A stretch of 64,000 nt of DNA, taken from assembly GCA_025360815.1 (NCBI GenBank), contig JANYBL010000005.1, positions 62,001 to 126,000 of the forward strand, in the 5' to 3' direction. The notes beneath the pieces were generated by a model. The model did not search any database. It had not been told where the DNA came from and worked only from the letters and a program-made list of their open reading frames with translations. This stretch comes from Burkholderiales bacterium (lineage in GTDB: Bacteria; Pseudomonadota; Gammaproteobacteria; Burkholderiales; Usitatibacteraceae). Each line of letters opens with the position of its first letter. The stretch's first letter is position 1. Of this stretch, positions 38,913 to 44,921 are shown one piece after another. The position numbers and the translations under genes are program-made.

Positions 38913-39626
38913 CTAGCTGATCAATCCAATTCTGATCGCTTTGATCACCGCTGCATGCTTGTTGTCACTTACCAATTTGCGACTGGCATTGCCGAGATGC
39001 CAGTTTACGGTGCGCTCGCAAACACCAATAATGATGCCAATGTCCCACGCCGTTTTGCCTTCCATTGTCCAGCGTAAGCACTCCAGTTCGCGGGCAGTGA
39101 GCTTTGCGAATTCTGCTTCAGGGTCCGGGTTCCAGATACGGTTCATTGCGGATTGTGCAAACGTGCCAAAAAGCTGCGCATCGGCCACTAGGCGCGAAAG
39201 CTCACGAGGGTCTGACGTCAATGGCCGGTCGCGGGCAAGACCGATTTTATAGCCGTTGCCGAGATGATCCCGCATTGAAATTGCGATGCCGCTATCGAAG
39301 TTGTAACGCTTCAAGTGCTCCCAAAGATCCGCTGCGCCTGCTTTTTGGTAAAGCTCGCGATTCCACACCAAAGGCAGATTACTGTTGTTAGAGTGCTGAA
39401 TAACAGGATCGTTGGCAATCAATTTCTCGTCGCGATAACTAGTCTTCCATGCGTCTGAGAAATTATTGACGTCCATCGCCCGAAACTTAGCGGTCCCTGC
39501 AATGCGAATGGTCATGAATGCCACTGCATGATTAAAGCCAAGATTGTCTGCAAACGAGACCAGCTCTTGCTTCAAAACTGCTCTGTTCGACACACTTAAA
39601 AGCGATGAATATAAATCGGTGATCAT
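38913..39626 (-). CDS. LuxR-type acyl-homoserine-lactone receptor/regulator
   Basis: 237 aa. All six residues of the AHL-binding signature are present: Trp60, Tyr64, Asp73, Pro74, Trp88 and Gly113 (AWKTSYRDE, NDPVIQ, LPLVWN, DSGIAIS). The C-terminal LuxR HTH (LTARELECLRWTMEGKTAWDIGIIIGVCERTVNWHL, about 174-210) is intact. No luxI-type synthase gene is in the window, so this is a solo or its synthase lies elsewhere. It is divergent from an RsaM-like gene, with a lux-box-like dyad between them and a perfect one 1 kb away. Confidence 0.9.
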   Translation of the reverse strand: MITDLYSSLLSVSNRAVLKQELVSFADNLGFNHAVAFMTIRIAGTAKFRAMDVNNFSDAWKTSYRDEKLIANDPVIQHSNNSNLPLVWNRELYQKAGAADLWEHLKRYNFDSGIAISMRDHLGNGYKIGLARDRPLTSDPRELSRLVADAQLFGTFAQSAMNRIWNPDPEAEFAKLTARELECLRWTMEGKTAWDIGIIIGVCERTVNWHLGNASRKLVSDNKHAAVIKAIRIGLIS

Positions 39627-39904: not shown

Positions 39905-39924
39905 CCCTGTCAAACATGACAGCT
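39905..39924. promoter_or_regulatory. Lux-box-like dyad between luxR-type and rsaM-like genes
   Basis: CCCTGTCAAACATGACAGCT: perfect 6-bp arms CTGTCA/TGACAG around a four-base centre. It shares the CCTGTCA core with the box at 40612. For rsaM it would be centred about 115 bp before the start codon; for the LuxR gene about 290 bp before. Confidence 0.6.
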
Positions 39925-40026: not shown

Positions 40027-40491
40027 ATGATGAATCTCAATCGCGCTACTGCTGCTAACGCCGGCCGGAAACCAAGTTACTGTCCGTTTATCAGGCTGTC
40101 CATTGTTGAATTGACAAATGCGGATTTTGAGCATCGGCGAACTGAGTGGCAGTCGCTGCCCGCTTTGTTGCCCACTGGTTCGGCGTTGGGCACCCGAACA
40201 TTTTCTGATGAAACCTACTTTCCCACTGCGACGGGAATTGCGGCGTGGGAAATTTCAACGCCAAGCCAATCTGGCTGGCTTGATTGGGATTGGGCCGTGG
40301 TAGCGGGTGGCATCATCACGCTCATCAATCCGTCCGATATCCGCAGCAACCTAGTGCTCCTAGATCGGCAGAATCGTCTTTTGCCGATGCACGACACAAC
40401 AGCCATGTTGGCGGCAACGGTTTATCAGTTGCCATGGCGCGAGCACGTTGAGACGTTGCTCAGTAGATATCTAGAATTGGCATCAGGTTGA
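40027..40491 (+). CDS. RsaM-like (DUF4902-type) quorum-sensing modulator
   Basis: 154 aa. The start pattern RLSIVELTNADFEHRRTEWQSLPALL, the WLDWDWAVVAGG motif and the closing LPWREHVETLLSRYL resemble RsaM proteins of Burkholderia and Pseudomonas, which repress AHL quorum sensing and are encoded beside luxR genes. The assignment is by recall of the family pattern and by position next to a LuxR-type gene. ATG 40027 or 40030; no strong ribosome site. Confidence 0.55.
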   Translation: MMNLNRATAANAGRKPSYCPFIRLSIVELTNADFEHRRTEWQSLPALLPTGSALGTRTFSDETYFPTATGIAAWEISTPSQSGWLDWDWAVVAGGIITLINPSDIRSNLVLLDRQNRLLPMHDTTAMLAATVYQLPWREHVETLLSRYLELASG

Positions 40492-40611: not shown

Positions 40612-40631
40612 ACCTGTCAGAGTTGACAGGT
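40612..40631 (+). promoter_or_regulatory. Perfect lux-box-like palindrome upstream of a small peptide gene
   Basis: ACCTGTCAGAGTTGACAGGT: uninterrupted 8-bp inverted repeat (ACCTGTCA/TGACAGGT) with centre GAGT, very close to lux/cep boxes. If centred at -42.5, transcription starts near 40664, about 83 bp before the peptide start. Confidence 0.78.
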
Positions 40632-40746
40632 TCGAAAAAGTTGGGAATGAGTTGAAATAGCAATACGGTGTTTGTGAAGCGCTCCAACCACCCAGCACTC
40701 TCAGCCAGATTCAAACGCACTCTCACACATTTAAAGGACAACGCTC

Positions 40747-40881
40747 ATGTTTACCCAAACTAAATTTGAAGATCAGCAAAATGCACAAGAGCTCAGCAAC
40801 GAAATGAATGAAATCAATTTGCTTAACGATATCGAACTCGGTGGCGTTGGCGGCGGCTTTGCTTTTGTTGGTGGTAACTAA
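40747..40881 (+). CDS. 44-aa peptide with double-glycine motif, predicted quorum-controlled
   Basis: AAAGGA lies eight bases before the ATG. The product is acidic and polar at first (MFTQTKFEDQQNAQELSNEM), then NEINLLNDIELGG, then the tail VGGGFAFVGGN. The first part looks like a leader for a GG-cutting peptidase/ABC exporter, with hydrophobic residues before the Gly pair, though their spacing is one residue off the class II bacteriocin consensus (-4/-7). The predicted mature part is only 11 residues, half of them Gly. No exporter gene is in the window. Function unknown; signal peptide, bacteriocin-like or scaffold roles are possible. Confidence 0.72.
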   Translation: MFTQTKFEDQQNAQELSNEMNEINLLNDIELGGVGGGFAFVGGN

Positions 40882-40988
40882 CCAAGCAGTTCAGCGGAGG
40901 CATCAAGCCGCCTACACGATTGTCGTAAGAAATATTGAAGAACAGAATTCTTTGTAGTCGTTCGCTGTTGCTATCTTTTGACGTTGCA

Positions 40989-41040
40989 GCGCGGCTAGCG
41001 GACTACCGTTAATTTAGTAAGTGTGTGACCCGTTAGCGCG
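40989..41040 (+). other. Structured 3' untranslated segment of the peptide transcript
   Basis: GCTAGCGG (40994-41001) can pair with CCGTTAGC (41030-41037) in the 190-nt non-coding stretch between the peptide stop and the terminator. It could be an RNA element or a small RNA body. Confidence 0.35.
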
Positions 41041-41068
41041 AATCATCCCCTGTGCTATCGGTTTTTGA

Positions 41069-41107
41069 ATGCAGATATGGCACTCCAGCCATATCTGCGT
41101 TTTTTTT
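41069..41107 (+). terminator. Very strong intrinsic terminator of the peptide unit
   Basis: Thirteen-bp stem ATGCAGATATGGC/GCCATATCTGCGT (one T-G pair), six-base loop, then eight T. It isolates the peptide gene from the sigma operon downstream. Confidence 0.9.
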
Positions 41108-41752: not shown

Positions 41753-42307
41753 ATGGAAGAACTGATCAAAAAAATAGCGGCTAAAGACGAGCAAGCGCTT
41801 GCAACATTGCACAGCCTTATGCACCGTCGGATAACAGCGTTTGCGTTGCAACGGCTAGGCAATTCGCAATTGGCCGAGGAGGTTATGTTGGAAACATTAT
41901 TTGAAGTCTGGAATCATGCACCAAAGTTTGCGGGGGGTTCACAGGTATCCACGTGGATTTTAGGTATTGCGCGCCACAAAGCGCTTGATAAGTTACGCAA
42001 GCTTCAGCAAGGCAAGCCTTGGCTTGAGGAATGGACTGACGAGCACTTGGAAATCGATTCTGGCGAAGTTGAAAGTATTGAACGGATCACAAATGCTGAA
42101 CTTACAACCGCCCTGCACAATTGCATGAAGGAGTTGCCAACTCTGCAACGCGAATGCCTACATCTCGTTTTTTATCAGGAGTTTAGATTGGAAGATATTG
42201 CCCGCATTCAGGATTGCCCGCCCAATACGGTCAAGACCCGCCTGTTTCATGCGCGGCGCAAGCTGCGTGATTGCTTGGCCGCGTGTGGACATGGAGAGCG
42301 ATCATGA
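41753..42307 (+). CDS. ECF-type RNA polymerase sigma factor
   Basis: 184 aa from ATG 41753. Sigma region 2 (RRITAFALQRLGNSQLAEEVMLETLFEVWNHAPKF) and region 4 (LPTLQRECLHLVFYQEFRLEDIARIQDCPPNTVKTRLFHARRKL) are complete. The stop overlaps the anti-sigma start (ATGA). Clearly paralogous to the sigma at 55276: both have STWILGIARHKALD. Confidence 0.92.
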   Translation: MEELIKKIAAKDEQALATLHSLMHRRITAFALQRLGNSQLAEEVMLETLFEVWNHAPKFAGGSQVSTWILGIARHKALDKLRKLQQGKPWLEEWTDEHLEIDSGEVESIERITNAELTTALHNCMKELPTLQRECLHLVFYQEFRLEDIARIQDCPPNTVKTRLFHARRKLRDCLAACGHGERS

Positions 42308-42987
42308 AATATACAAAATTAACGCCCGAATCGCAGCAGAGCTTCTTGGAGCTGCTGCCTTGGTATGTCAATGGCACGTTGAAGAGCGATGACCGCCGCT
42401 CAATGGAATATTGTTTAGCGACTTATCCTGATTGTCGTGCCGAGCTTGAGTGGATGGATGGTGTTGCACAGCAGGTTCGTGGTGAGTCTTTTCCACTTAA
42501 TGAACAAGAAGGGTTAGATCGTTTGATGTCAATGGTACGAGCACAAGAATCAGGCAAACTTTTAGTGTTGTCGCGCCCGTCAGCGCCTCTTGGAGGGGCT
42601 GCAAGACAAGTATTGGGCACTGTTTCGCGCACCAAACTACAGCAGTGGATTAAACCGCTGATGGCGGTTGCGGCAACGCTTGCCGTGGTCCAAGTAGGAT
42701 TGAGCTTTATCGGCACACAATCCAGCGATCAAAGCGAGACGTTGCGGCCGCTCGGAACAGCCCAACCGATGCCACGCCACGCGATGATCCAGGCAACGTT
42801 TCGAGCCGATGCCAGTGAAACTAAGATCAGGGCGTTGCTTGCGCAGGTAGGCGCGGAAATTGTCAGCGGCCCCGGTGCGCTAGGTGTTTACACGCTTAGA
42901 GTGCCGATTAATAAGGCTGAGAACGCGTTAGCCGATCTAAGGCGCGCCACCACAATTATTGACAGCGCAACGCAGCTTCCCCAATAA
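42304..42987 (+). CDS. Membrane anti-sigma factor with C-terminal propeptide-like domain
   Basis: 227 aa. The cytoplasmic part (1-110) has LELLPWYVNGTLKSDDRRSMEYCLATYPDC, a zinc-finger-like anti-sigma region lacking the classic HxxxCxxC. One membrane segment follows at about 118-138. The periplasmic domain (about 165-225) reads QATFRADASETKIRALLAQ, then GAEIVSGPGALGVYTLRV, then ENALADLRRA: a beta-alpha-beta-beta-alpha pattern as in subtilisin propeptide/inhibitor I9 domains. It is coupled to its sigma and 9 bp from a subtilase gene. Confidence 0.85.
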   Translation: MKYTKLTPESQQSFLELLPWYVNGTLKSDDRRSMEYCLATYPDCRAELEWMDGVAQQVRGESFPLNEQEGLDRLMSMVRAQESGKLLVLSRPSAPLGGAARQVLGTVSRTKLQQWIKPLMAVAATLAVVQVGLSFIGTQSSDQSETLRPLGTAQPMPRHAMIQATFRADASETKIRALLAQVGAEIVSGPGALGVYTLRVPINKAENALADLRRATTIIDSATQLPQ

Positions 42988-42995
42988 GGGTTGCG

Positions 42996-44921
42996 ATGAG
43001 AAAATTTGCTCAAACGTTAGTCGTGCATGGACTGTTAGTCACTTTCAGCGCTACGGCATTTGCGGCACCTGCGTTGATGGCTGCAACATTGCCTGCATCA
43101 GCGCGTGGCGATGGCAAGGATATTGCGAAAGACAACTTAGTGTGTGATAAAGCTTCGCTGTCGAACTCGATGCAGGTGCTGACAAATGCGCGTAAGGTAG
43201 TTTGCAACGACCGCTTGGTCGCGGTCAGCGCCACCCCGCCTAATGCTGACCACAATAGCGGCAAGATTAGCCCGCCTTTGCTAGCCAAAACCCCGCAAGC
43301 GCTGCCTCAAGCGACCCTATCGATCGGGCAGTCCATCGCACCTTCGTCTCTCATCCCCGCCAAGCCCGTATCCCAGCTCCCATCCGCGCCGCCCGCAATT
43401 AGCGCAAACAGCGATGTGTTATTGCCGTCGTTGGTGGCTGTCAATTCCAGCTCCCTCCCTTCCGTCGCGCCGCCAAAATCGCCGGAAATGATGAATCAGT
43501 TAGCACCAAAAGGTGTCGCCGGAAAAATCGTGATAACGGAAGCAACAAACAAATTCGAGTCGGAGTCGACCAAGCAGGGAAGCACAATAAAAACTAACCC
43601 AACGCTCATGCAGCACGCTACGCAAATCACTAAGCCCGCCAGCGCAAACGAGACGGCAAAGCCAGCTAGTCCAGCAAATCCTGCTAAAACACCTTTACAG
43701 ATGTATGAATCCGGTCAGCTGGTGGTCTACTGGAAAGATGCTGGTGACGCAGCAATAGGTTTGATTGTGATGGCGCGCGAGTTCAAGTTGAACCCTGTTA
43801 GCGAGAATCGTTTACCTAATTTGGGCGGCGTAATAGCCACATTCAAACTATCATCTCAACGTGAAGCCGAGCGCGTAAAGGGTCTGTTGGCTGCACGTTA
43901 TCCAACTTGGCATATCGATTTTCAAACTCGCTACCTGCCGCACCAGAGTGTGCAACATGTTTCTTCGGGCGCCTCTAATCCAGCTCCCAATTCCCGACCA
44001 AGATTATTTGCCTCAGCTAAGATTGACTACCCAATGCCCGCCCCAGATGCGGGCATTGGCATTCGTGTGGGGCTTGTTGATACCCCGGTTGAGTCAAGTT
44101 ATGTTTTAAAAAATGCGACCATGGTGCGTCGCAGTTTCCTCAATCCCGGCGAGATCTCTGCGCCCGCTTCCCACGGCAACGCGCTGGCGGCATTGATTGC
44201 CGGGCGCGAAGATGCGAGCGATTTTATAGGCATTAGCCCAGGTGCCAGCTTGCATATTGCATCAATCATGCGTACCCAAGCCGGCCTCGGCGGTGGGATG
44301 GGGAGCAACGGCGCTAGCAATACCGCAACATTGGTGCGGGCACTTGATTGGCTGCTGGGCGAACGTGTTCAGATCATTAATCTGAGTCTCGGTGGTGCTG
44401 GCGATCGCATCATGGAAGAGGCGATTGGCAAGGTATTGCGTTCGCGGGTCATCATCATTGCAGCTGCGGGCAATCAGGGCGAAGATGCCCCGCCCAGCTA
44501 CCCGGCCGCGTACCCCGGCGTGATAGCGGTGACCGCGAGTGATGCGCTCGATCGCGTTTTTACGCAAGCGAATCGCGGTACTTATATTTCCCTCACAGCG
44601 CCAGGTGTTGATGTTTGGGTGCCGGATCCTTCTGGCGGGCGCTATGTCAGCGGAACGTCATTCGCGGCGGCAATAGTGAGTGGCGCAGTGGCCGTAATGC
44701 TTTCGCGTCACGTCGCTATTGATGTTGGCAATGTGCGCGGACTGCTATGTCGCTCTGCCCGCGATTTGGGCGGTGACGGAGTTGACCCCGTATTTGGCTG
44801 CGGGCTGCTTCAGCTCGGCGCGACACTCGCGGGATTGCCGATCGCTGCGCGAAGTGCGATGGTTTCTGCCGACGGCGCAACACCCAGCACTAAGGATAGC
44901 AGCTCCTTACAGCGACGATAA
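42996..44921 (+). CDS. Secreted S8 (subtilisin-like) serine peptidase
   Basis: 641 aa: signal peptide (to about 29), a 200-residue Pro/Ser/Ala/Lys-rich linker, a propeptide-like domain (about 236-312), then the catalytic domain with Asp362 (GLVDTP), His393 (SHGNALAALIAG), Asn493 (AAGNQGE) and Ser555 (SGTSFAA). The triad is complete. GNAL replaces the usual HGTHVA. The gene directly follows sigma and anti-sigma genes, so it may act in signalling or be their main target. Its last 112 bp overlap, antisense, the end of the next gene. Confidence 0.92.
   Translation: MRKFAQTLVVHGLLVTFSATAFAAPALMAATLPASARGDGKDIAKDNLVCDKASLSNSMQVLTNARKVVCNDRLVAVSATPPNADHNSGKISPPLLAKTPQALPQATLSIGQSIAPSSLIPAKPVSQLPSAPPAISANSDVLLPSLVAVNSSSLPSVAPPKSPEMMNQLAPKGVAGKIVITEATNKFESESTKQGSTIKTNPTLMQHATQITKPASANETAKPASPANPAKTPLQMYESGQLVVYWKDAGDAAIGLIVMAREFKLNPVSENRLPNLGGVIATFKLSSQREAERVKGLLAARYPTWHIDFQTRYLPHQSVQHVSSGASNPAPNSRPRLFASAKIDYPMPAPDAGIGIRVGLVDTPVESSYVLKNATMVRRSFLNPGEISAPASHGNALAALIAGREDASDFIGISPGASLHIASIMRTQAGLGGGMGSNGASNTATLVRALDWLLGERVQIINLSLGGAGDRIMEEAIGKVLRSRVIIIAAAGNQGEDAPPSYPAAYPGVIAVTASDALDRVFTQANRGTYISLTAPGVDVWVPDPSGGRYVSGTSFAAAIVSGAVAVMLSRHVAIDVGNVRGLLCRSARDLGGDGVDPVFGCGLLQLGATLAGLPIAARSAMVSADGATPSTKDSSSLQRR

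Follow-up and report, generated by a model that had tools for sequence, protein, structure and literature searches.

A 44-codon double-glycine peptide gene behind a lux-type box, and a wider Burkholderiales family of candidate peptide signals associated with TPR-HD-GYP proteins

The textbook view of bacterial cell-cell communication assigns small-molecule signals to Gram-negative bacteria and peptides to Gram-positive bacteria. Class II microcins and bacteriocins typically have double-glycine (GG) leaders and C39 exporters, and bacteriocins are often under quorum-sensing control. The same leader and exporter serve the ComC-type pheromones. In the RRNPP systems of Firmicutes and phages (Rap-Phr, NprR-NprX and arbitrium), a short linear peptide, which leaves the cell by Sec export and re-enters through Opp-type importers, is paired with a TPR protein. 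The DSF-RpfC/RpfG pathway uses a fatty-acid signal, senses it with a membrane kinase and ends at an HD-GYP phosphodiesterase of cyclic di-GMP (c-di-GMP). An in silico survey by Dirix et al. 2004 (as cited in PMC3262810) covered Gram-negative candidates for GG-leader/C39 systems. According to a review (PMC10710839), rsaM genes invariably adjoin luxI or luxR, and a divergent luxR-solo/rsaM pair lacking luxI is designated "type 6".

Here, we analyze a 44-codon peptide gene in a 64,000-nucleotide stretch of Burkholderiales DNA (the window), which belongs to a genome of 3.74 Mb (G000). The locus resembles "type 6" loci (PMC10710839) in having luxR divergent from rsaM in a genome where luxI was not found, but adds a box-driven GG-peptide gene 3′ of the pair, of which the consulted passages of that review make no mention. 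With the GG-leader peptides of C39 exporters (ComC-type pheromones and class II bacteriocins), it shares the LxxxELxxVxGG signature, a C39-ABC exporter with an HlyD partner encoded in the genome, and a short tail. It differs from these in a predicted mature part of only ~7 residues, in its lux-type box, in the distance of the gene from the exporter, and in matching no Pfam or NCBIfam model. The wider family to which the peptide probably belongs parallels the RRNPP systems, as the gene for a short linear peptide adjoins one for a TPR protein with no evident membrane segment, and a model of one such protein resembles Rap and NprR structures. In contrast to RRNPP systems, this family is Gram-negative, and has a GG leader, predicted C39/HlyD export and an HD-GYP output domain; moreover, the adjacency of peptide and TPR genes, which holds in the wider family, is absent at the window. 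As in DSF-RpfC/RpfG signaling, the candidate cell-cell signal would end at an HD-GYP c-di-GMP phosphodiesterase, with a candidate peptide instead of the fatty acid, and a TPR region fused to HD-GYP instead of the membrane kinase.

With somewhat better than even confidence, we consider that the unit stands alone as the gene of a heptapeptide signal that is under LuxR/RsaM control and exported through a C39 system, is an outlying member of this family and possibly feeds into c-di-GMP turnover. The parts are all of known kinds; their combination appears new. Neither a double-glycine peptide/TPR-HD-GYP system nor a LuxR-driven GG peptide was encountered in a literature search that had most subscription journals and all bioRxiv preprints outside its scope; the preliminary description of this DNA likewise knew of no system of this form.

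The peptide unit and its LuxR/RsaM setting

The gene lies at 40747–40881 on the plus strand and encodes the precursor MFTQTKFEDQQNAQELSNEMNEINLLNDIELGGVGGG+FAFVGGN, with codons 40747–40857 predicted to specify the leader and codons 40858–40878 the tail. By direct reading of the sequence, a ribosome-binding site (AAAGGA; 40733–40738, plus strand) ends 8 nt before the ATG at 40747. A lux-type box (ACCTGTCAGAGTTGACAGGT / ACCTGTCAgagtTGACAGGT; 40612–40631, without strand) is located 115 nt 5′ of the ATG, and a strong intrinsic terminator of 15 pairs followed by a T run (41067–41102, plus strand) closes the unit. No other plausible gene is present in this transcription unit. The ribosome site, the 44-codon gene and the stand-alone character of the unit are all as the preliminary description had them, and so is the presence of a terminator and of a LuxR-type receptor gene nearby. 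The peptide has no match in Pfam, NCBIfam or PHROGs, or among plasmids (tblastn), and an Rfam search of 38.5–43.5 kb also returned no match. Downstream of the unit (41756–44921), an ECF sigma factor, an anti-sigma factor and an S8 subtilase are encoded consecutively; the anti-sigma protein contains a weak match to a subtilisin prodomain. No known RiPP-modifying enzyme was found among the tested neighbors (M61 peptidase, LuxR, RsaM, ECF sigma, anti-sigma, S8 protease and BTAD).

The LuxR-type receptor is encoded at 38913–39626 on the minus strand and consists of an autoinducer-binding domain (PF03472, E 5e-19) and a GerE helix-turn-helix (HTH) domain (PF00196, E 3e-13). Its nearest solved structures are QscR, RhlR and LasR, and the AHL-contact residues W-Y-DP-W-G are kept in its ligand pocket. 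Divergent from luxR is a gene for an RsaM-like quorum-sensing modulator (DUF4902; 40027–40491, plus strand; PF16245, E 1.8e-8), which matches the solved RsaM protein BCAM1869 (4o2h) weakly (E 0.005). This gene, like the wider peptide family, is absent from the preliminary description. Elsewhere in the family, PF16245 is absent. A search for luxI (PF00765) gave no match in G000, and only weak, sub-threshold matches in the 28 family genomes; the 14 control genomes were also without a match and, thus, offer no strong positive control. As luxI was not found in the genome, the receptor is probably a LuxR solo, and any AHL would be exogenous, or else the ligand would be a different molecule. The peptide gene is putatively AHL-induced.

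The box had been reported as a perfect 20-bp palindrome. Its 8-bp arms are indeed perfect, but the 4-nt spacer (GAGT) is asymmetric, and 16 of the 20 positions match. A bare 8-4-8 inverted repeat is not rare, with four in the window compared to ~0.8 per shuffle, and the box exceeds chance through its particular sequence. Across the 3.74 Mb of the genome, five sites match the pattern ACCTGTCA-N4-TGACAGGT with at most one mismatch. When the pattern is reversed as a control, the genome has no exact occurrence, and five occurrences with up to three mismatches, compared to 14 for the true pattern. At this latter threshold, the window contains three box sites versus 0.1 expected. One of the lux-type boxes in the window (CCCTGTCAAACATGACAGCT, two mismatches; 39905–39924, without strand) lies in the luxR/rsaM intergenic region, ~100 nt before rsaM. 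Four further strong lux-type boxes in G000 are found at L003 2533, L013 4870, L014 4953 and L015 4929, near genes for a truncated beta-lactamase-family protein, a DUF1993 protein, a HAD-like phosphatase and an M50 peptidase, which share no theme; these boxes may mark a LuxR regulon. Behind the other lux-type boxes of the genome (contigs C46, C4, C34 and C127), no peptide of the same type was found. In 20 genomes, the surroundings of the exporter clusters (see below) contained no lux box with up to three mismatches.

It is unlikely that the box serves another regulator and that the peptide gene stands outside quorum control. The absence of a luxI match, and the occurrence elsewhere in G000 of strong boxes close to genes that are unrelated or unclear in kind (DUF1993, HAD-like phosphatase), would be in keeping with such an arrangement, but boxes stand both between luxR and rsaM and before the peptide gene, the corresponding box of a related species lies by luxR and rsaM remnants, and the motif follows the CTG-N10-CAG pattern of lux/cep boxes.

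That species, the second of the same genus (G017), is the only other member of the genus with a homologue of the peptide, as judged from 28 family genomes searched. The homologue is also 44 residues long, with a sequence identity of 44%, and its gene is preceded by a box (ACTTGTCAGACATGACAGCT) two mismatches from the consensus. The upstream sequence, box, start region and terminator hairpin of G017 line up with those of the window gene; the ribosome site recurs as well, and the hairpin, which can be read 3′ of the gene, is followed by a T run. Conservation of the frame and of a lux-like box in relatives, suggested earlier as a check, is therefore seen in this species. The neighboring region (L020 6023–6800) contains a luxR pseudogene, with an in-frame stop and a lost N-terminus, and a 3′ remnant of rsaM; as these adjoin the peptide gene, the locus is orthologous. 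Of the 33 leader bases at each codon position, the two species share 20, 19 and 14 at positions 1, 2 and 3, respectively, as expected from a coding frame, in a comparison of little power. On this comparative sequence evidence, we conclude that the 44-codon peptide gene is real. Neither an exporter nor a TPR-HD gene was found in G017, whose assembly is incomplete.

A LuxR-controlled peptide might still not be a working exported signal, acting instead as an intracellular regulator or persisting as a receptor-less relic captured by a lux promoter. The absence of a linked receptor, the divergent tail, the decay of luxR in G017 and the lost start of an exporter-adjacent frame in G000 would all be explained in this manner. 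However, both species preserve the features of the leader, as well as the frame, ribosome site and terminator, and we consider this reading improbable.

Leader, predicted cleavage point and probable membership of a wider family

The precursor contains a canonical double-glycine leader, with the LxxxELxxVxGG pattern directly before its short C-terminal tail (LNDIELGGVGGG+FAFVGGN). Cleavage is likely to occur after VGGG, as predicted from the relatives and from the LxxxELxxVxGG consensus, which fits only this end; the mature peptide, FAFVGGN, would then have seven residues. The preliminary description had placed the cut after ELGG, to release the 11-residue VGGGFAFVGGN. This position is a double glycine as well, and the ungapped alignment with G017 has GG there in both sequences (TEVGG), with 11-residue tails in both. 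Nonetheless, such a cut would place a glutamate at position −4, the first family alignment shows no variation at V and GGG, and relatives read LELALVGGG before the tail. Cleavage after ELGG is, thus, disfavored by the family alignment and the consensus, and we consider it decidedly unlikely.

A weak match of the window peptide in Betaproteobacteria bacterium GR16-43 (G024, complete genome CP019169, locus L147) exposed the wider family. In this genome, micro-peptide genes whose products end in LNELELALVGGG+GGDIHWG form an array next to a C39 ABC exporter with an HlyD partner. Members of the family are about 40–65 residues in length, with a GG leader that ends in ...LxxLxLxxVGGG and is followed by 6–8 residues, and their genes are usually found beside an HlyD/C39-ABC exporter and one or two genes for proteins with TPR and HD-GYP domains. 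This family of Burkholderiales micro-peptides is apparently undescribed.

A profile built exclusively from exporter-adjacent peptides of other genomes ranked the window peptide second among 2770 small open reading frames (E 0.024), and the G017 peptide third (E 0.18). The first rank (E 0.008) was taken by another G000 frame (MNMKN...LTMHELDWVGG+TSGCDNLGQ; L089 997–1155, minus strand), which is divergent from the TPR-HD gene of contig C44. The E-value falls to 8e-15 with a profile that includes the window sequence, which is circular. On sequence by itself the tie is weak (independent E-value of 0.024); the family link is likely, not certain, and the window peptide probably belongs to this wider Burkholderiales GG-peptide family as an outlying member. 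Its tail is without the common xGDV pattern of the family, and its gene adjoins neither an exporter nor a TPR-HD gene; no TPR-HD gene is present within the window.

Exporter loci and TPR-HD-GYP proteins

The C39-type ABC exporter that had been proposed as something to look for in the genome is encoded, together with an HlyD partner, on contig C44 of G000. Close orthologues (at least 71% identity over the peptidase part) are present in 22 of the 28 family genomes, including G000; in five others, the C39 exporters are all more distant. Across the aligned exporters, the C39 domain has Q, C, H and D as invariant catalytic residues. Most exporter loci (L084–L103 and L153–L191; for example, the cluster at L147 6700–15091) encode one to six peptides convergent with, or close to, the exporter. 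Their tails, which include GGDVFVG, CGDVIWG, SGDVIF, IGDTII, DIVIAY, DVTVVIA, CGEVVFY and QAVMVFL, are 6–8 residues in length in 46 of 47 family peptides. Within a locus, the tails have an identity of 0.87 and the leaders one of 0.52; between loci, these values are 0.23 and 0.26, respectively. As the tails are near-identical while the leaders have diverged, this pattern suggests a receptor-matched signal, rather than a bacteriocin.

The preliminary description had left the choice between a second signal and a very small bacteriocin; a quorum-induced antimicrobial (microcin or class II bacteriocin) using the same C39 export would suit the GG leader, the exporter type and the frequent quorum-sensing control of bacteriocins, but is disfavored as very improbable, as tails of 6–8 residues are far below the size of known class II microcins (tens of residues), the unit is without an immunity-like gene, no immunity or RiPP gene lies nearby, and the family tails are locus-conserved and tied to a TPR-HD-GYP gene, which speaks for the signal.

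An exporter-adjacent GG-peptide frame of G000 (L089 3100–3263; tail SVAVAF) is missing a usable start, which is broken by an 11-bp tandem repeat (ATGTCCAAAGA-like, in about three copies); this may reflect phase variation or decay. A stand-alone C39 peptidase domain protein of 195 residues, without an ABC part, is also encoded in G000, at L019 4698–5285 (minus strand).

The TPR-HD proteins are 580–650 residues in length and consist of TPR repeats and an HD-GYP domain with a conserved HHExxDGxGYP motif. One or two of their genes are present in nearly every peptide-bearing exporter cluster. Among 37 exporter loci, 20 contain both a peptide and a TPR-HD gene, three a peptide but no TPR-HD gene (each of them at a contig end), five a TPR-HD gene only, and nine neither. 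This co-occurrence is significant for loci with enough contig room (Fisher p 1e-4, uncorrected for phylogeny). The complete genome G010 contains the exporter, with neither a peptide nor a full TPR-HD gene. Distances between tails correlate with those between TPR regions (Mantel r 0.37, p 0.003), and the corresponding values are r 0.26 (p 0.06) for the HD domain and r 0.27 (p 0.01) for the exporter; the partial correlation of tail and TPR distances, given the exporter, is r 0.26 (p 0.035).

An AlphaFold2 model of one full-length TPR-HD protein (pLDDT 84) has Rap receptors with pheromones as its best structural matches (Z 27–28, top 27.9), followed at slightly lower scores by NprR, MalT and LGN; the HD-GYP structure 4mcw matches with 41% identity. 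With a model of the TPR region alone (pLDDT 87), LGN comes first (Z 23.6) and Rap scores 21.1. The fold therefore fails to single out the RRNPP family, and we do not take the Rap match as proof of RRNPP membership. The predicted TPR fold fits a peptide-binding superhelix like those of RRNPP receptors, and also like those of other TPR proteins. Based on sequence motifs and these models, the TPR-HD-GYP proteins look able to bind short peptides and to degrade c-di-GMP. Since the window peptide is without an adjacent receptor and has an atypical tail, its receptor may be the TPR-HD protein of contig C44, another one, or none.

A possible signaling pathway

In the LuxR/RsaM-controlled pathway that we propose, the RsaM-like protein encoded next to the LuxR solo would modulate it, and this LuxR, when loaded with ligand, would bind the box at 40612–40631 and the box before rsaM. 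The ligand would probably be an exogenous AHL, and ligand-bound LuxR would switch the peptide gene on. A different contig encodes the ABC exporter whose C39 peptidase domain would then cut off the leader behind VGGG, and FAFVGGN would be released by this HlyD-linked exporter. By analogy with RRNPP receptors, cytosolic TPR-HD-GYP proteins are the likely receptors; following uptake and binding of the peptide, they would turn its concentration into c-di-GMP breakdown. The core of the preliminary description, in which a lux-type box precedes the gene for a GG-leader peptide and an AHL-type LuxR is encoded close by, agrees with the comparative evidence.

More tentatively, and with less than even confidence, these loci could represent an undescribed RRNPP-like class of peptide quorum sensing in Burkholderiales, in which cytosolic TPR-HD-GYP proteins read C39-exported peptides of 6–8 residues and lower c-di-GMP. 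In the window, one such pheromone would be placed under an AHL-type LuxR solo and RsaM, joining acyl-homoserine-lactone sensing to peptide signaling. Our observations suggest that many, mostly uncultured, Burkholderiales export heptapeptides via C39 exporters and may read them through TPR-HD-GYP proteins into c-di-GMP; with the window peptide under a LuxR box, two signaling languages could meet here. The idea is cheaply testable, as the peptides can be synthesized, and the candidate receptors are apparently soluble with a measurable enzyme activity.

GG peptides are likewise encoded near TPR-HD genes that lie at a distance from exporters, at L192 and in a second class of loci (L227, L232, L234, L236, L238, L239, L240, L241 and L193). 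The peptides of this second class have Trp-containing tails (EIGPYW, DGAPVWPY, DVSPEWPTTNG, DFEPEWP, GDGMPVWG, EGGYEWP, DGVACW, ESTPCWG and DSTPNW). At L227 and L241, at least, a GerE-type HTH gene is located between the TPR-HD gene and the peptide.
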